Assembly (NCBI GenBank): GCA_018064405.1
Contig: JAGHVG010000016.1
Coordinates: 1-38,108 of the forward strand
Direction: 5' to 3'
Source: Candidatus Enterousia scatequi
GTDB taxonomy: Bacteria > Pseudomonadota > Alphaproteobacteria > Rs-D84
DNA: 38,108 bases
Numbering within the stretch: position 1 is the first letter of the stretch; each line of letters begins with the position of its first letter. The translations under genes and the position numbers were made by a program. Below the pieces are notes generated by a model. It was not told the origin of the DNA. It searched no databases and saw only the letters and a list, made by a program, of their open reading frames with translations. Below are positions 3,885 to 32,510 of this stretch, piece by piece.

Positions 3885-6278
3885 ATGAAGAAGATTCTAC
3901 TTTTTGTAGTGTGTTTTATCGCATGCTGGGGTGATTCAGTGGCGGCTGTTCGTGGTGCAACATCCGGACTTCGCCAATCATCTGTATCGCAACGTGTTAC
4001 GACCACAGATAAATCTGTGCGGACACCAACTGCACGAACTGCGGTAAACGTCAGTGCGCGATCTGGGGTGATAACACACAATACTGGTGCAAATACATCA
4101 CGTGCACAAAACCAATCAAATATAGCGCGTTCGGGTAATGAAAGTAATATGTCTGTTGCAGAAACGCGGACTGGTGCAGAGTATGAAAGGTGTAAAACCG
4201 CGTATTTTACATGTATGGATCAATTTTGCCTGTTAAAAAACGATAACTATCGTCGTTGTTCGTGCACAAATCGTGTCAATGAATTGGCAGATTTAATTGC
4301 AGAATTGCAAGAAGCCGGGGATCAGTTGAGTGTGTTTACAGAAAATTTAGATGTCGTTGGAATGAGTGCGGCACAGGCAAAATCAATGCGCACCCCATCA
4401 GAAGGGGAATCTGCGTTGGCATCAGATACTTCTGCGTCCAAGGCGATATTGGAAGCGATAATGAATTCTATACGGGGTGAAAGTGCAAGTGTTGCTGGGA
4501 AATATTCAGATTTAAACAGTTTAAATTTATCGTTTGATACGGTTAACGCATTTGGAACATCGGATATTGGACAAACTATTGCTGCATATAATGGGCAAAA
4601 TTTGTATGCTGCGGTTTATCCCCAGTGTCGTCAGGCGGTTCGTGCAGATTGTAATAACGCATCTTTACAGCGCGCAATAACGGCGTATTTGATGGCGATA
4701 GAACAAGATTGCAATACAGTGCAGACCGCGATTGAAAACAAACAAGCGGAATTAAAGAGTGCCCTGCGCGAGGGTAGTGCTATGTTGGATTTGGCGCGTA
4801 TAGAAAACCGTCAAACCAGGAATTCATATAATTTTACACAATGCATTAATAATATTGAACAAGCCATCCTTAGCGAAGAGGTGTGTGGTGCTGGATATCA
4901 CAAATGTCTGGATAACGGGCAGTATATAGATGTATCTACGGGTGCACCAATAAAGGGCGTGCCTAATTTCTATAAATTGGGACAATTATTGACATTTGAT
5001 GATAGTGTGGATGCCTTGAACCAAAAATTATCAAAAACTGTAAACAACCTGGGTTTTGTTAAGAACTTTGAAAGTAGGGTAAAAAAATTTGCAGAACCTG
5101 CGTTGGCGAAATGCAGTGAAAATGCAGATAGCGTTTGGTCTGATTATTTAGACAAGGCAATGCTGGATATATATTATGCCCAAAAAGCAAAAGTGGCAGA
5201 AATTAAACAGGGTTGTTTTGATTTTGTTTCGTCATGCTATATGAATACTGATGCGGCAATAACAACCGCAATGCGCGAATTGTTGAATGTTAGGGATATT
5301 GTTGTTCAACCTGATGCGATTGCGTTGAATGGTGCAATGTGCAGGGATTATGTTGATTCTTGTAATAATATGTTTGATGGTAATATTGTTGCCGAATATA
5401 TCAAAAATAGACAAGATACAGATGTGTTGACGGCTTGTCGGGCAATTGTTAAGCAATGTTTTGATAGTTATGGTGGAACCAATTATGAAAATTTTTATTA
5501 TCCGTATAGTGGTTTATTTGGAGTCAAAAATACCGTTAATGAGCAACAGGATGCCCAGACAGTATATGCACTAGATTGGTTTACATTGAGAGATAAAAAC
5601 GGTAATTTAGTTTCAGAATGCGCAGAACAATTAACGACTATTGATGCTTGTAATAATGACAAAATTATAGAGGAAGCATTTGGTGGATTTGACAGGTATG
5701 ATGATAGCAGTGTTCCTGGTGGAATTGCCTATGGTATAAAATCTGAAAATAATCCAAATATGCATATTAATCGTGGTGTAAGGGCAGGTGGGGTTGCCAC
5801 AGAAATTTATAATCAGATATTAGATGTTTTATCAATAAATTGTGCTAATATTGGTGGCAAGTTTGTAGCATTTCAAAATATATCTACTTTAAGCGGTTAT
5901 ACCGTAGGTGGTAGTAGTGGTGATATATGTAAAATTGCGTCATTTTCTGATGCCGATCTTGTTAAGGAATATGGTTTGATGCCTGACGAGGATATGTGCC
6001 CACGTGGCTATAAGTGGGATGTGGATATTAATTCTTGGGGTTTTTGTTCGTGTTGGGAAAACGGGTATAGACGGACTAAAAACGGTCAAACGATCAGCTG
6101 TTTTGCTGGATTGCCGGTCAAAGCAGAAAAAGCACTGAATGATAGGCAATGTGAATACGTTGATGAAGTGGATGTTGATTGGAACGGAGACGCTTCTAAG
6201 TGGTGTAGTTTGCCAGGAACAGTGGTTTGTCCATTTGGGAAAGTGTGGAATTCTACTATCAAACAATGTGTTAAATAA
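3885..6278 (+). CDS. Large exported Cys-rich protein of unknown function
   Basis: Signal peptide MKKILLFVVCFIACWGDSVAA; many Cys; Cys-dense C-terminus (CPRGYKW...CSCWENGYRR...CPFGKVWNSTIKQCVK). Confidence 0.7.
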   Translation: MKKILLFVVCFIACWGDSVAAVRGATSGLRQSSVSQRVTTTDKSVRTPTARTAVNVSARSGVITHNTGANTSRAQNQSNIARSGNESNMSVAETRTGAEYERCKTAYFTCMDQFCLLKNDNYRRCSCTNRVNELADLIAELQEAGDQLSVFTENLDVVGMSAAQAKSMRTPSEGESALASDTSASKAILEAIMNSIRGESASVAGKYSDLNSLNLSFDTVNAFGTSDIGQTIAAYNGQNLYAAVYPQCRQAVRADCNNASLQRAITAYLMAIEQDCNTVQTAIENKQAELKSALREGSAMLDLARIENRQTRNSYNFTQCINNIEQAILSEEVCGAGYHKCLDNGQYIDVSTGAPIKGVPNFYKLGQLLTFDDSVDALNQKLSKTVNNLGFVKNFESRVKKFAEPALAKCSENADSVWSDYLDKAMLDIYYAQKAKVAEIKQGCFDFVSSCYMNTDAAITTAMRELLNVRDIVVQPDAIALNGAMCRDYVDSCNNMFDGNIVAEYIKNRQDTDVLTACRAIVKQCFDSYGGTNYENFYYPYSGLFGVKNTVNEQQDAQTVYALDWFTLRDKNGNLVSECAEQLTTIDACNNDKIIEEAFGGFDRYDDSSVPGGIAYGIKSENNPNMHINRGVRAGGVATEIYNQILDVLSINCANIGGKFVAFQNISTLSGYTVGGSSGDICKIASFSDADLVKEYGLMPDEDMCPRGYKWDVDINSWGFCSCWENGYRRTKNGQTISCFAGLPVKAEKALNDRQCEYVDEVDVDWNGDASKWCSLPGTVVCPFGKVWNSTIKQCVK

Positions 6279-14660: not shown

Positions 14661-14927
14661 ACCGCCTAAAATGGCGGGTTTTTGTTACAAATAACACGAT
14701 TTAATCTGGTTGCGAGAATTTAAAAATACATACAAAAATCAAACAGTTAAATACAAAAAAGTGGTGGAAAAAAACTAAGGTTTAAAGTCAACCACTTTTT
14801 GCATAATTTTGCTGTTGTTTAAAAATGCGCTGTAACCCACAGTGGGTGTGCGTTTGCGTGGTTTTTATAGGTATTGTCTTGTGGGTGCCTGATGGGGTGG
14901 TGCAAAAACCTTGGTTTATGTACCATT
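14661..14927. repeat. Intergenic repeat R2 upstream of surface-protein genes
   Basis: 14771-14927 aligns ungapped to 31201-31357 with 6 substitutions; left part resembles 3164-3300. Confidence 0.85.
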
Positions 14928-15017: not shown

Positions 15018-15215
15018 ATGAAACGGATATTTATAATTTTATGTTTAATAACATTCTGCAACATATCATACGCAGATATTGCATCAACGGCATACGTGGA
15101 TAACGCACTTTCCACCAAGCAAGATAAATTACAAATGCAACAACGTCCAACAACTGGCAAACATCAATTGGTATACGATGCCAATACGGCTGAATTTAAG
15201 TATCAGGAGCAATAA
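15018..15215 (+). CDS. Small exported protein, N-terminal-module paralogue of the next gene
   Basis: Signal peptide then DIASTAYVDNALSTKQDKLQMQQRPTTGKHQLVYDANTAEFKYQ, similar to 15218 product DIASTGYVDSIANTKQDVLPMAARPTNGTYNVVWDSNSGQFIFE. Confidence 0.7.
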   Translation: MKRIFIILCLITFCNISYADIASTAYVDNALSTKQDKLQMQQRPTTGKHQLVYDANTAEFKYQEQ

Positions 15216-15217
15216 TC

Positions 15218-16462
15218 ATGAACAAACAAATATCATTATTCATTGTAATATTAATGACGATACCTGCTTTGGCATACGGTGACATTGCATCCACCGGATA
15301 TGTTGATAGTATTGCCAACACAAAACAAGACGTGTTACCGATGGCAGCCCGTCCAACCAATGGTACCTATAACGTTGTTTGGGATAGTAACAGTGGTCAG
15401 TTTATATTTGAACCAGGCATGCAATGTGGTTCGGGTTGTTATGTCAATGGAGATAATGTTTGTATGTATTGTGATAAAGCATCATTTAATACAACCCAAA
15501 CAGAAAGTGTAACCAACGGCACACGTTCGCGCACTAACGCATGTACATCTGTGGATGTTGGTGCAACAACGTGTTCATGTTCCAATCGCAGTTATGGTAA
15601 TTGGACATATAATTGTAATAGCGGCTATAGTGGATCATCATCATGTTCATGCACGACCCCATGCACATCTGTTGCGAATCGTACCGACACAACCAGTGGG
15701 ACGGAAACATGCACAATAAGAAACGGCACAGGCAAACGTTCATACACGAATACATGCAGTAGTAATTACACCAGCAGTGGTTGTTCATCTGCTGGTGCAT
15801 CGTGCAGTGGGTGCAGTGCGTATAACACGCGTTCATCGACGGGTACATGTTATGTTCAAACATGTAACACTGGATATTATGGCACAGCGAATTCGTCAAC
15901 ATCATGTAGCGTATGCACGAATAAGCCATTGCATTCATTCTATACTGGATCATCGACAAGCAACAACTGTCCATGGACATGCGATAGTGGCTATACTCAA
16001 GAGGGCAGCGAATGCGGTGGTCTGAGTTGTCCATCTGGCCAATACGACATCGGATTTAGTCAGTGCATAGATCCCGCCACGAATGAGACAGGTTATGGAT
16101 ACATCAACGACAGTGTTCATACTTGGATAGGTCCAGATAGTTCCAATGAGTCCGTATACGGTCTAACGCAAGACAACACCTGGGGTGTGACATTATATAC
16201 AGGTGATAAAATAAAGGGAGAGACATTATGCAGCAGCATGGAAGGGATAGATGGCAAACCTGGTAATCCTGATGAAGCATTTGATGAGGATACTAGTCAG
16301 TATTGCTGGTGCAGGATGACGTTTCCGGCTGTGTCGCGTTGGGTGTTCCTCTACGACGACGGCTTTGCGGGCAATTGCGCGAACAATTGTGCGGGCTACT
16401 GCGGTTACAACATCCAGTTCAATTCCGCTTTCCGTTCGGGCATGTTCGGTTCGGTTGAGTAA
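15218..16462 (+). CDS. Exported Cys-rich modular surface protein with C-terminal CPSGQYD...CWCRMT...RSGMF domain
   Basis: Signal peptide; Cys-rich EGF/GCC-like centre; C-terminal domain homologous to both halves of the 31389 product. Confidence 0.8.
   Translation: MNKQISLFIVILMTIPALAYGDIASTGYVDSIANTKQDVLPMAARPTNGTYNVVWDSNSGQFIFEPGMQCGSGCYVNGDNVCMYCDKASFNTTQTESVTNGTRSRTNACTSVDVGATTCSCSNRSYGNWTYNCNSGYSGSSSCSCTTPCTSVANRTDTTSGTETCTIRNGTGKRSYTNTCSSNYTSSGCSSAGASCSGCSAYNTRSSTGTCYVQTCNTGYYGTANSSTSCSVCTNKPLHSFYTGSSTSNNCPWTCDSGYTQEGSECGGLSCPSGQYDIGFSQCIDPATNETGYGYINDSVHTWIGPDSSNESVYGLTQDNTWGVTLYTGDKIKGETLCSSMEGIDGKPGNPDEAFDEDTSQYCWCRMTFPAVSRWVFLYDDGFAGNCANNCAGYCGYNIQFNSAFRSGMFGSVE
16333..16459 (+). 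other. Candidate DGR-type variable region A
   Basis: Compared with 31904-32018: changes concentrated at codon positions 1 and 2 with third base kept, mostly C; at extreme 3' end of CDS. Confidence 0.5.
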
Positions 16463-16489
16463 TTGATGACCGGTATTATGCGAATCGTA

Positions 16490-16528
16490 TCAAAAAAACA
16501 ACCGCCCATTTGGGCGGTGTAAAAATCA
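16490..16528. terminator. Terminator between convergent genes
   Basis: aaaaaacaaccgcccatttgggcggtgtaaaaa. Confidence 0.6.
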
Positions 16529-16538
16529 GGTGAATTTT

Positions 16539-17162
16539 TTACCAATCACCATTACATTCCAGAATTTTATTAACCAATTCATCAGGGTGTGCCAACATGT
16601 TGGCACTGAAATCCTTGACATCTTCAATAAAACCGTTATGCATCATATGGACAAACATCAAACTAAACAAGTCCCAGAAATGCCCAGTGTTCAGGAAAAA
16701 TATTGGTTTTTTTGATTCACCAATTTGTTGCATGGTTAAAATATCAGAAACTTCGTTTAATGTTCCAACACCGCCCGGCAAAATTATAAATGCATCGGCA
16801 ATTTCGTACATTGCCTGTTTACGCTCGTTAAGCCCACCAACAATTTTTACTTTAACACGTTCGTGTGCTGGTTCTTGTTTGTTAACCAAATGTTCAGTGG
16901 AAATTCCAGTAACCGAACCACCGTTGTCAAGTGCCGCCGTTGATACCGCACCCATCAGGCCAACATTACTGCCCCCGAAAACAATGCCGATTTCATTCCG
17001 CGCCAATAATTCACCAATCTGTTCCGCATCACGTGCATATTGACGATCGTTACCCAGTTGGTGTCCGCAATATACTGCAACCGTTTTTATTTTATGTGGT
17101 GCATCCTTACATTTTTTGTTGTGTATGGGGCTTTTAGTGTTTTTTGCTAGTTTTGTTGCCAT
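16539..17162 (-). CDS. LOG family protein (TIGR00730, nucleotide 5'-monophosphate phosphoribohydrolase type)
   Basis: GGSNVGLMGAVS; PGGVGTLNEVSDILTMQQIG. Confidence 0.88.
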   Translation of the reverse strand: MATKLAKNTKSPIHNKKCKDAPHKIKTVAVYCGHQLGNDRQYARDAEQIGELLARNEIGIVFGGSNVGLMGAVSTAALDNGGSVTGISTEHLVNKQEPAHERVKVKIVGGLNERKQAMYEIADAFIILPGGVGTLNEVSDILTMQQIGESKKPIFFLNTGHFWDLFSLMFVHMMHNGFIEDVKDFSANMLAHPDELVNKILECNGDW

Positions 17163-17210
17163 GTCTTTTTTCCTTTATTTTTGCAAATTATACCATAAAA
17201 TAACCTGTCT

Positions 17211-18179
17211 ATGAATCAAAATTTTAAGGACTTTATTCAAAAATATACAGACAAGCCAATCGCCGTTGCGGTCAGTGGTGGGGTGGATTCTGTGTGTTTA
17301 TTATGCTGGTTGGCGCAAATTCATAAAAACGTGGTGTGTTTGCATGTGAACCACGGTCTGCGTGCAGCGGCGGATACCGAAACAAAATATGTTTCTGACT
17401 TGTGCAAACAATTAAATGTTCCATGCCAGGTTTTCTATTGGACTGGCGAAAAGCCACAAACGGGTCTGGAAGCGGCTGCCCGGGATGCCCGATACAAGAT
17501 GATGATTGATTATTGCCGTGAAAATGCGATTGATTATTTGATGGTTGCACACCAGGCAGATGATCAAATTGAAACATTTTTAATGAACCTAGGGCGGGGC
17601 AGTGGGATTTATGGTCTGGCGGCGATGAAGACCGAATCTGTGCGTGATGGTATAAAAATTGTCCGTCCGTTGTTGTCTGTGTCGCGCGCGGAAATAAAAA
17701 AATATTGTGATGATAACAATATCAAATATTTTGCTGATGAAATGAATGACGATACGCACTATACGCGTGTTAATATTCGGAAAAATCGCCATGTTTTATC
17801 GGACACGTTGGGGATTAGTGATGCGCGGTTGTTGCTGGCAATTGAAAATTTGGGGCGTTTGCGCGATGCGTTGGACAATGATATAGATCATTTAATTACA
17901 TCTGTCTGTCACAAACATTATGCGATGTTTTCTGATTCTTTTCTGTTTGACCTTAGCCCAGATATTAGATTAAAGTTACTTGGAACATTGATTCAAAAAA
18001 TAGGGGGGGATAATTATCAGCCACGCTTGAAATCATTGGCGTGCGCACTAGATAAATTATCACAAGATACACAATTCACATTGGGACACTGCACAATACG
18101 CAGGTTGAAATCAAAGATTTTAATCGTTCCCGAAGGTGATAAAACAACGTTTAGGACAAGACATGAAAAAAGTATTTAA
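17211..18179 (+). CDS. tilS: tRNA(Ile)-lysidine synthase
   Basis: AVSGGVDSVCLL PP-loop; HVNHGLR; HQADDQIETFLMNLGRGSGIYGL. Confidence 0.92.
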   Translation: MNQNFKDFIQKYTDKPIAVAVSGGVDSVCLLCWLAQIHKNVVCLHVNHGLRAAADTETKYVSDLCKQLNVPCQVFYWTGEKPQTGLEAAARDARYKMMIDYCRENAIDYLMVAHQADDQIETFLMNLGRGSGIYGLAAMKTESVRDGIKIVRPLLSVSRAEIKKYCDDNNIKYFADEMNDDTHYTRVNIRKNRHVLSDTLGISDARLLLAIENLGRLRDALDNDIDHLITSVCHKHYAMFSDSFLFDLSPDIRLKLLGTLIQKIGGDNYQPRLKSLACALDKLSQDTQFTLGHCTIRRLKSKILIVPEGDKTTFRTRHEKSI

Positions 18180-20037
18180 AAAAGATAGATCTGGATGGTT
18201 TTTAGGGTTATTTATTGCACTGTTTTTGGCAATGATTTTGCGCACTTTTGTTGTCGGTGGCCCGTCACAGGTTATTAGTGCTGATGGAACAGTTGTTCAA
18301 TCAACCCGTCCGGTTGAGATGTCTTTTTCAGATGTCTTGCGTCGCAGTGGCGACATTAAGACAATGAATATTCGCGGTGAAGATGTGTCTGGGGAATTAA
18401 AGGACGGCACAAAATATAATGCGACAATAACTTATGATCCGGCATTGTTGTCTAAACTTGCGGAAAATGGTGCAACAATATCCATAGATGCATCCAAGAC
18501 ATTGTTGGATTATCTGGGGTTGTGGTTCCCGATTGTTTTTGGCGTGTTGCTGATATGGTGGTTGTTACGCGGTATGCGTGGTGGGGCGGCGGGAATAGGG
18601 CGCAGTTTAATCGGGCAAAACCCAACAAAAATTACAACAGGAAAACCAAAGACAACGTTTAAAGATGTTGCAGGAATTGATGCAGAAAAACAAGAATTAG
18701 TGGAAGTCGTAGAATTCTTGAAAAATAAAGATAAGTTCAAGGCGATTGGTGCCCGTGTGCCACGTGGAATATTGTTGTCTGGGGAACCAGGAACGGGTAA
18801 AACACTGTTGGCGCGTGCTATCGCAGGCGAAGCAAATGTTCCGTTTTTCGCAACATCGGGCAGTGACTTTTCAGGTATTATCGTTGGGCTGGGGGTCGCT
18901 AAAATAAAAGATATGTTTGAAATGGCAAAACGGACTGCGCCATGCATACTGTTCATAGATGAAATTGATGCAATCGGTCAACGTCGCAGTGCGCATTCTT
19001 TTAATGACCAGGATCGAGAACAGACATTGAATCAGTTGCTGATAGAAATGGATGGGTTTGCAAATGATACTGGGGTAATTGTGATTGGGGCAACCAACCG
19101 ACCGGATATGTTGGATCCTGCGTTGTTACGCCCAGGACGTTTTGATCGCCAGGTCCATATTGATTTACCTGATTTGTCGGCACGTAATGCCATTTTGGAA
19201 TTACACGCTAAAAAGTTTAAGTTAGAAGATAATGTCGCACTTATGGATGTAGCGCGTGGAACAACCGGGTTTTCCGGTGCTGATTTGGAAAATTTGTTGA
19301 ATGAAGCGGCGTTGCATGCGGTGCGTGAAAACCATAGCAAAATAGAAAAATCTGATTTAGATGAGGCGCGTGATAAAATTTTGATGGGGCCAAAGAAAAA
19401 CCGTAAAATGCGCCCAGAAGATATAAAATTAACCGCATATCACGAAGCGGGGCATGCGTTTGTTAGTGTGGCGTATTCTGACGTGACCGACCCCATACAC
19501 AAGGCGACTATTATTCCGCGTGGGCGTGCGCTGGGGATGGTTCAACACTTACCCATTGACGACAAGGTGTCTATGACAATTTCTGAAATTCGTGCTGAAT
19601 TGGCAGTCGCACTGGCGGGGCGCGGTGCCGAAGAAGTGTTTTTTGGTAAAGATAAAATAACAACCGGTGCAGAAAGCGATATTGATATGGCAACGCGGTT
19701 GGCGCGGTATTCTATAACAACAGCGGGATTGTCGGATAAAATTGGTCTGGCGGCAATAAAGCAGGTTAATAATTTCGGTAATCGCAGCCCATTGGAATCT
19801 GCATCTGAAAAAACGTCTGAATTGGTTGATGCGGAAATTCGTTCATGGTTGGACAACGCACACAAAGATGCGATTCGGTTGCTGACTAAAAACAAAGATA
19901 CGGTTAAGCGTTTGGCCGAAGAATTATTGAAACGTGAAACCTTAACTGGGGATGAAATCAAAGAAATTATTTCTGGGAAAAAGAAAACTGTGAAAAAAAC
20001 AATCGCAGTTAAGAAAAATGGAAAACGCGCAAACTAG
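18163..20037 (+). CDS. ftsH: ATP-dependent zinc metalloprotease FtsH (atypical pore loop)
   Basis: Two N-terminal TMs; GEPGTGKT; IDEIDAIG; ATNRPDMLDPALLRPGRFDRQV; YHEAGHAFVSV. Confidence 0.93.
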   Translation: MKKVFKKDRSGWFLGLFIALFLAMILRTFVVGGPSQVISADGTVVQSTRPVEMSFSDVLRRSGDIKTMNIRGEDVSGELKDGTKYNATITYDPALLSKLAENGATISIDASKTLLDYLGLWFPIVFGVLLIWWLLRGMRGGAAGIGRSLIGQNPTKITTGKPKTTFKDVAGIDAEKQELVEVVEFLKNKDKFKAIGARVPRGILLSGEPGTGKTLLARAIAGEANVPFFATSGSDFSGIIVGLGVAKIKDMFEMAKRTAPCILFIDEIDAIGQRRSAHSFNDQDREQTLNQLLIEMDGFANDTGVIVIGATNRPDMLDPALLRPGRFDRQVHIDLPDLSARNAILELHAKKFKLEDNVALMDVARGTTGFSGADLENLLNEAALHAVRENHSKIEKSDLDEARDKILMGPKKNRKMRPEDIKLTAYHEAGHAFVSVAYSDVTDPIHKATIIPRGRALGMVQHLPIDDKVSMTISEIRAELAVALAGRGAEEVFFGKDKITTGAESDIDMATRLARYSITTAGLSDKIGLAAIKQVNNFGNRSPLESASEKTSELVDAEIRSWLDNAHKDAIRLLTKNKDTVKRLAEELLKRETLTGDEIKEIISGKKKTVKKTIAVKKNGKRAN

Positions 20038-20668
20038 TTTTGAAATATTTCGTATGCAGCCACAGAATACAAATTCTGTATTGTTGTGTCGTGGCAATGA
20101 TTGTGTTATTTTTGATGCGTGGGGGCGTGCAACAGATTGGGCACATTTATTGGATGCGCGTGGACTAAATTTGCGTGCGATATATTCAACACATGGACAT
20201 CCTGATCATATTTCAGCTGCCCCAGATTTAGCAAAACAGTATGGCGCAATATGGTATTTACATCCGGCAGATAGAAATTTAATAGGTTGGGGTAATGAAA
20301 TATTGGATATGTTTGGATTAGATCATTTGTGCCCCCATCATGATGTTTCATCTGATTTGGTGCCGGGTAATGTTAAGGTTTTACCAGAAACAGATATGCA
20401 GATAATCGAAACCCCCGGACATTCTGCTGGGGGGGTGGTGTATTGGTTTCCTGAATATAAAATATTATTGTCTGGGGATACGATTTTTCGGGATGGTTTT
20501 GGTCGCTATGATTTGCCTGGTGGCAGCAGGGGGGATTTAGAGCAATCTATATCAAAAATTTATGATATGAATTTGCCAGATGATACCTATGTTGTTCATG
20601 GGCATGGGTTGGATTCAACGATAAAAATATTAAGGGAAACAAATACGGTATTTAAACATTATGATTAA
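20018..20668 (+). CDS. MBL-fold metallo-hydrolase (glyoxalase II-like)
   Basis: STHGHPDHISAA; TPGHSAGGVVYW; LSGDTIFRDGFGRYDLPGG; VHGHG. Confidence 0.88.
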   Translation: MENAQTSFEIFRMQPQNTNSVLLCRGNDCVIFDAWGRATDWAHLLDARGLNLRAIYSTHGHPDHISAAPDLAKQYGAIWYLHPADRNLIGWGNEILDMFGLDHLCPHHDVSSDLVPGNVKVLPETDMQIIETPGHSAGGVVYWFPEYKILLSGDTIFRDGFGRYDLPGGSRGDLEQSISKIYDMNLPDDTYVVHGHGLDSTIKILRETNTVFKHYD

Positions 20669-31186: not shown

Positions 31187-31357
31187 AAACTGGTGCAAAA
31201 AAAACTAAGGTTTAAAGTCAACCACTTTTTGCATAATTTTGCTGTTGTTTAAAAATTCGCTGTAATCCACAGTGGATGTGCGTTTGCGTGGTTTTTATGG
31301 GTATTGCCTTTTGGGTGCCTGATGGGGTGGTGCAAAAACCTTGGTTTATGTACCATT
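31187..31357. repeat. Intergenic repeat R3 upstream of surface-protein gene
   Basis: 31201-31357 aligns ungapped to 14771-14927 with 6 substitutions. Confidence 0.88.
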
Positions 31358-31388: not shown

Positions 31389-32510
31389 ATGCGCAAACAC
31401 ATATTCACACTAGGAATAATACTAACCATAATACCGGCATATGGATACAGATCAAGGGATGCAAATAATATCTGGACCGATCCAGAACGTACAACGCTTG
31501 CCAAAGAAATATGCGATAGTGATACCCAGGGTTGTCCATCTGCATCATGTTGGTTACCTGGTGGAATATATTATGATAATAAGGGAACATTTACCGAAAC
31601 ATGTACTGGTGGTTGTTCATCTGGTCGATACAACATTGGATTCAGCAGTTGTGTTGATGTAAAAACGAATGGCACAGGTAGGGGCTATATAACCAGAGGA
31701 AGAGAATACACTGCTGACACCGGTACCTATGGTCTAACGGAGGACCAGACATGGGGCGTGACATTTAGTGGTTATGGTCAAGTAAAAGGTATATCAGCAT
31801 GTACTAGCACATCTGGTACATTGGGTGTAGCCACTGATACAGAATTTAGTAACACAACACTAACTGGAGGCAATTGTTGGTGTAAAATGACAAGTCCGGC
31901 TACTTCGCGTTGGGTGTTCTACGCCGCCGACAGCGGTTCGGGCTCTTGTGGTCGCTGGTGTGCGTACCACTGCGCTGACGTAGTCCAGAACAATGTCATA
32001 GTCCGGTCGGGCATGTTCAGGTTATTTGGGTCAGAGTCGTCTTTTGACCAAACTTATGCGCGCAAATTAAGGGATTGTTCGAGATTTAGTTGTCCACCTG
32101 GTCAATACGACTTAGGATTCAGCAGTTGCATTGAAAATGTGTGGGGAAGTGGCTGGGGCGGTTGGAATTTTAATGGGGGCAAATCCTCCGCCACCACCTA
32201 TGGCTTAACTGCAGCTGGTCAATGGGGTACAACATTAGATGGTGGTAATAACATAACAGGCATAGCATCATGTAATGATACACCTGGTACACAAGGTGTA
32301 CTCGCCGATACAGAATTTAGTAACACAGTAAGTGGAGAATATTGTTGGTGTAAGATGACAAGTCCAGCTGCTTCGAGTTGGGCGTACCTCTACGACTACA
32401 CCACCAATAGTTCTTCCACGTGCGCTGAAGATTGTGCGGGCTACTGCGGTAGGTACAGCCAGAGCACCTCGAGTTTTCGGTCGGCCATGTTCTGGTCGGT
32501 GGGGAATTGA
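31389..32510 (+). CDS. Exported surface protein with two tandem copies of the CxSGxYD...CWCKMT...RSxMF domain
   Basis: Signal peptide; internal duplication (31607-32039 and 32084-32510) and homology to C-terminus of the 15218 product. Confidence 0.82.
   Translation: MRKHIFTLGIILTIIPAYGYRSRDANNIWTDPERTTLAKEICDSDTQGCPSASCWLPGGIYYDNKGTFTETCTGGCSSGRYNIGFSSCVDVKTNGTGRGYITRGREYTADTGTYGLTEDQTWGVTFSGYGQVKGISACTSTSGTLGVATDTEFSNTTLTGGNCWCKMTSPATSRWVFYAADSGSGSCGRWCAYHCADVVQNNVIVRSGMFRLFGSESSFDQTYARKLRDCSRFSCPPGQYDLGFSSCIENVWGSGWGGWNFNGGKSSATTYGLTAAGQWGTTLDGGNNITGIASCNDTPGTQGVLADTEFSNTVSGEYCWCKMTSPAASSWAYLYDYTTNSSSTCAEDCAGYCGRYSQSTSSFRSAMFWSVGN
31904..32018 (+). other. Candidate variable region B (internal domain copy)
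   Basis: Ungapped codon alignment to region A; variation biased to codon positions 1 and 2. Confidence 0.4.
32372..32505 (+). other. Candidate variable region C (3'-terminal domain copy)
   Basis: Same scaffold as region A with about 2 inserted codons; 3' end of CDS; followed by AATTGATG also seen after region A. Confidence 0.45.

Follow-up and report, generated by a model that had tools for sequence, protein, structure and literature searches.

The window analysed here, a stretch of 38,108 nucleotides, is contig C4 of a draft genome (756 kb in 38 contigs, 79 % complete) from a Candidatus Enterousia-like bacterium; the draft was studied through searches and in selected stretches. Enterousia belongs to the order Rs-D84, whose genomes are mostly smaller than 1 Mb and for which a partner-dependent life has been inferred (PMC12306168). 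The following features lie on the forward strand:

14770-14927, + strand: 158-nt leader upstream of gene A, 96 % identical to 31200-31357
15018-15215, + strand: 65-aa ORF (translation) between leader and gene A, 90 nt after the leader
15218-16462, + strand: putative target gene A, 414 aa, from the ORF and its translation
16325-16452, + strand: putative variable repeat A (region A), from an ungapped 128-nt alignment to the candidate template TR2, with 16/32 adenines and 7/96 other bases changed
31200-31357, + strand: 158-nt leader upstream of the gene with two repeats, common to surface genes
31389-32510, + strand: putative 373-aa target gene carrying two variable domains (B and C), from its translation and two domain matches
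31896-32022, + strand: putative variable repeat B, 21/32 adenines and 14/95 other bases changed relative to TR2
32364-32497, + strand: putative variable repeat C, 18/32 adenines and 19/96 other bases changed relative to TR2

The product of gene A has a signal-peptide-like N-terminus, a cysteine-rich middle and a variable C-terminal domain (residues 268-414), and a search of Pfam and NCBIfam returned no match to it. The 65-aa ORF resembles the N-terminus of gene A and is probably a truncated paralogue. The 158-nt leader has ten full-length copies in the draft at 91-100 % identity, eight of them outside the window on contigs C22, C32, C36, C14, C21, C17, C30 and C38 (91-94 % identity). Six of the ten stop within 50 nt of the edge of their contig, and therefore more genes of this type were probably lost at assembly breaks. 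The leader folds slightly better than shuffled sequences (z = -2.1).

A gene with a variable repeat (VR) adjoins the LOG and tilS genes both in the window (16462-20308) and in the relative G069 (C23:34000-39000), in opposite orientations, a sign of inversion or of independent insertion; the two VR genes share little alignable coding sequence. Elsewhere in the draft (G000), a VR gene at C36:10080-10261 carries a frameshift at the start of its VR and is probably a pseudogene or an assembly error. A 797-aa ORF at 3885-6278 of the window is without any Pfam match.

A sequence-only reading of the window had described the end of gene A as a hypervariable segment that a diversity-generating retroelement (DGR) might have rewritten. 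Its placement at the gene end stands, while its bounds need adjustment: homology to the template begins about 8 nt earlier, near 16325, and stops about 10 nt short of the end of the gene. Its hand count of differences between A and B proved exact, with 31/72 at codon positions 1 and 2 and 6/36 at position 3; over the 36 ungapped codons from the TGG at 16340 and 31911 these are 17, 14 and 6 differences at positions 1, 2 and 3. The excess of codons ending in C that it pointed out is also real: third-position C reaches 50 % in the segment compared to 21 % in the remainder of gene A, and third-position A falls to 0 % from 27 %.

That reading also proposed looking genome-wide for a DGR reverse transcriptase (RT) and a template repeat (TR), and the outcome favours its DGR interpretation: we found an RT with an adjoining TR/VR pair on contig C8 and an AAC-rich candidate template for region A on contig C17. 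The only RVT_1 match in the draft (C8:9316-9867) belongs to a 361-aa RT with the motifs IGNLTSQ and YCDD, the first of which fits the [ILV]GxxxSQ motif typical of DGR RTs. Compared with solved structures, the best match is 8ub7 (E = 1.5e-46), which we take to be the BPP-1 enzyme, while the best group II intron RT reaches 1.5e-21; identity to BPP-1 brt is 33 % over 313 aa. A 108-aa accessory ORF precedes the RT gene, and downstream follow an AAC-rich, non-coding repeat, TR1 (C8:10203-10337), and a short secreted-protein gene whose 3' end forms the corresponding VR (C8:10903-11037). TR1 and this VR differ at 17/31 adenines and at 1/104 other bases, and the adenine bias vanishes when the roles of the two are swapped. 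Judged by its sequence, the C8 enzyme is a DGR-type RT, with TR/VR differences at its locus confined to template adenines.

The accessory gene (L001:919-1242, adjoining the RT) is conserved over several phyla without belonging to a Pfam family, and none of 38 homologues matches the Avd family PF05635. In the model of the protein, the order of the strands is OB-like and there are weak matches to OB folds; the protein is possibly a nucleic-acid-binding partner that replaces Avd. Directly after the TR (L001:2543-2660) lies a conserved RNA-like motif, GTTTTGCYAACCTGCGGGACAAAGTG..CACTTTTCAGATG..CATCTG, found at the same place in related RT loci. It forms hairpins with some compensatory changes (5/23 pairs), and the copy that follows TR1 has no match in Rfam.

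TR1 was rejected as the template of region A: 16/30 adenines differ, but so do 25/85 other bases. The sequence on C17, which we call TR2, matches the scaffold of region A with A at the variable positions, and its adenines occupy codon positions 1 and 2 only. In a fixed-frame test, region A differs from TR2 at 16/32 adenines and 7/88 other bases (Fisher p = 1.5e-6), and repeat B at 21/32 and 14/88; repeat C, with a 6-nt length difference, is more diverged than A and B. Adenines thus take 16 of the 23 differences in region A, where template A is replaced by C, G and T; all 11 changed AAY-type codons (TR2 as reference) retain their third base, and the reading frame and fold-critical residues are intact. 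Template AAC and AAT codons turned into NNC and NNT are just what the comparison shows, and our results support seeing the end of gene A as the scars of an RT system that would randomly rewrite chosen codons.

Using a genome-wide aligner that tolerates A mismatches, and with TR2 picked partly for its AAC richness, we found 13 places in the draft, A and B included, that are adenine-biased relative to TR2 (Fisher p <= 1.2e-5). The fixed-frame test and the results for TR1 and G069 are independent of that choice of TR2. TR2 behaves as the centre of a star: taken as template it gives a ratio of adenine to other mismatches of 3.8, compared to 1.5-2.5 for any VR put in its place. Over 18 VRs, the third base is kept in 221/258 changed codons. 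At adenine codons the residues vary by about 2-3.5 bits, except for the single CAG with 1.6, and other codons do not exceed about 1.7 bits; the highly variable first and second bases belong to template AAC, AAT or GAC codons whose neighbours are nearly fixed. One might instead regard the codon pattern as compositional, produced by an imported GC3-rich segment or by conserved codon use around cysteines, given that third-base C is high all through the segment, even at the invariant Cys and Phe codons. Composition leaves the strong variation at AAC, AAT and GAC codons directly beside near-fixed ones unexplained, and we give this explanation hardly any weight. Comparing all VRs of a genome pairwise by codon position was uninformative as a DGR test, since such a comparison mixes template classes (fraction of third bases kept: 0.56 in the draft, 0.49 in G069, 0.32 in G037, 0.48 in G093).

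The surroundings of TR2 are less clear. Over 183 nt, TR2 and its 5' flank match a G069 sequence at 79 % identity, and this sequence lies about 620 nt upstream of the RT there. On contig C17, TR2 is followed by a target gene, and on C13 the same 5' flank leads into a mutated VR; since the two contigs share this flank and diverge after it, at least one of the junctions is probably an assembly chimera. A search of the draft for a second post-TR RNA motif, which would locate the 3' flank of TR2, returned the TR1 copy only, and a search for a second accessory gene as the mark of a second cassette returned only the copy on C8. Our preferred reading is that TR2 belongs, as template, to a second cassette and that the RT part of this cassette is missing from the assembly; alternatively, the C8 RT would act on TR2 in trans. 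G034, of the same genus, has two RTs and two accessory genes.

The same signs recur in relatives. Most of those that carry the RT are MAGs of Alphaproteobacteria recovered from the guts of animals, Candidatus Enterousia onthequi among them, and a blind scan of their RT loci returned adenine-biased repeat pairs in most, for example with 17/31 adenines and 0/117 other bases changed. G069, which is 94 % complete, has one RT, one TR and several remote targets. Compared to its own TR, the cis target differs at 13/24 adenines and 0/112 other bases, and the remote targets at 13/24 and 3/111, 15/24 and 4/111, 15/24 and 6/111 (two targets) and 13/24 and 10/111. TR2 explains VRs of G069 as well, with 15/32, 16/32 and 18/32 adenines changed against 7/96, 9/96 and 9/96 other bases.

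Across the genus, with one genome compared per species, an RT match was obtained in 46 of 162 genomes and at least one copy of the variable domain in 133. This wide dispersal, mostly in genomes where no RT was detected, would suit a paralogous surface family diversified by ordinary positive selection and gene conversion with no DGR at all, and the shared leaders, 91-96 % identical, point to exchange or to copies made recently. Yet selection on amino acids would not hold the third base as it is held in all 11 codons of region A and over the 18 VRs, nor would it limit change to template adenines, and both this genome and a close relative contain a DGR RT accompanied by textbook TR/VR pairs. We consider such an origin very improbable, if slightly less so than a compositional one.

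A more serious question is whether region A is a fossil, a VR formerly rewritten by a DGR whose template or RT has since been lost or has drifted, and which now diverges normally. This possibility departs from our main explanation in present activity only. Region A departs from TR2 at 7 bases other than adenine, compared to 0-1 for cis targets and their TRs, and its last rewriting was therefore probably not recent, or the template has drifted. G069 likewise contains TR2-class VRs, yet only a different TR was found there. The domain can also occur where no DGR is detectable, as two genomes in which no RT was detected carry about 30 copies of it, and Treponema denticola strains retain leftover targets after loss of their DGR (PMC4891356). 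On the other hand, both a TR2-type template and a DGR RT are still in the draft, most differences fall on adenines, and frame and fold-critical residues are intact. We regard the fossil state as a substantial possibility, rated somewhat below an even chance.

Taken with this reservation about timing, region A is very probably, from the sequence patterns above, the variable repeat of a DGR rewritten by mutagenic retrohoming. A non-coding, AAC-rich template repeat would be transcribed into RNA, an error-prone RT would copy it with misincorporation opposite adenines, and the gene for the surface protein would have its homologous 3' end replaced by the cDNA. Such templates would serve about a dozen remote sites in addition to the neighbouring target. 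The sequence shows, on C8, an RT with its accessory gene together with TR1 and a target derived from it, as well as a TR2-like template and the adenine-restricted divergence of A, B and eleven others from TR2; retrohoming would be the maker of these changes, and the variable domain may bind partners at the cell surface.

The sequence-only reading had suggested a fold prediction for a C-type lectin, and here the result went the other way: the predicted domain is a beta-sheet with a cysteine-rich helix, not a recognisable C-type lectin. The AlphaFold2 model of residues 268-414 of gene A, made from 40 natural sequences (pLDDT 96, pTM 0.90), has five main strands followed by helices 117-134 and 136-144, and the VR corresponds to the final strand together with the two helices. 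On the first helix the adenine codons are gathered on one face (moment 0.55, permutation p = 0.0018), which in the model lies about 120 degrees away from that of Cys120, Cys124 and Cys128. These three are invariant, as are Cys71, Cys96 and Cys98; disulfides and an exposed variable face are presumed. Foldseek searches of the PDB and BFVD found nothing significant and no lectin in the top 50 of each, and sequence profiles gave no PDB match and nothing consistent in Pfam.

Relatives of the RT in MAGs of Spirochaetaceae, Elusimicrobia, Bacteroidales and Deltaproteobacteria have templates or targets of the type AGGNWNN...GSRCRNANN, which we take, from their sequence, to be lectin-like, while two Rickettsiales-labelled MAGs have targets of the Cys-helix type as in Enterousia (L108, L109, L113, L114, L117, L118 and L121 compared with L111, L112 and the Enterousia loci). 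This suggests that the target scaffold has changed within one RT lineage, which is paired with the Cys-helix type in Alphaproteobacteria-labelled MAGs and with lectin-like targets in other phyla. DGR variable proteins are thought to be near-exclusively C-type lectins: in a survey of 36,611 targets the annotated VR domains were systematically of this fold, and the others were supposed to be variants (PMC8144416). We found no description of the Cys-helix scaffold in the open-licence literature. We hypothesize, and on balance believe, that in the Rs-D84 gut Alphaproteobacteria and their relatives a DGR lineage has swapped the C-type lectin for a cysteine-rich helix on a small beta-sheet, with one face randomised, and writes to a large family of secreted proteins encoded at remote sites, all within a genome no larger than about 1 Mb.

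If this is true, a non-lectin fold with textbook adenine-specific variation would be another evolved scaffold for massive variation, and binder libraries might be built on the Cys-helix as a new framework. It would also mean that a genome of about 0.8-1 Mb, inferred to be partner-dependent (PMC12306168), maintains many surface genes that can be rewritten, which would make a role in partner recognition, or in evasion of phages and host immunity, directly testable.

Among known systems, the TvpA DGR of T. denticola has a single RT and a single TR that serve as many as seven target genes, mostly remote ones, and leftover targets persist in strains without the RT (Nimkulrat et al. 2016, PMC4891356). 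The Enterousia system resembles it in its remote targets and in the domain copies of genomes where no RT was detected, and differs in the fold of the target, a C-type lectin in TvpA, in the at least 13 places biased toward one template in the draft, and in its host, an alphaproteobacterium with a reduced genome. With BPP-1 Mtd/brt it shares a homologous RT (33 %), adenine-specific divergence, a C-terminal VR and AAY codons in the TR. Unlike BPP-1, it is cellular and, as far as seen, not phage-borne, it has remote targets, its accessory protein falls outside the Avd Pfam family, and its target is not a recognisable C-type lectin. The nine DGR loci of Thiohalocapsa PB-PSB1, which comprise 15 target genes with 21 VRs and for which there is evidence of trans activity (PMC10907252), are likewise cellular with many targets; those involve C-type lectin domains tied to conflict systems in a multicellular bacterium, whereas the Enterousia targets are short secreted proteins and the genome is smaller than 1 Mb. 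The DGRs of CPR bacteria with reduced genomes (clade 2, Roux et al. 2021, PMC8144416) are also cellular and found in small, probably partner-dependent microbes, while the host here belongs to the order Rs-D84 of the Alphaproteobacteria.
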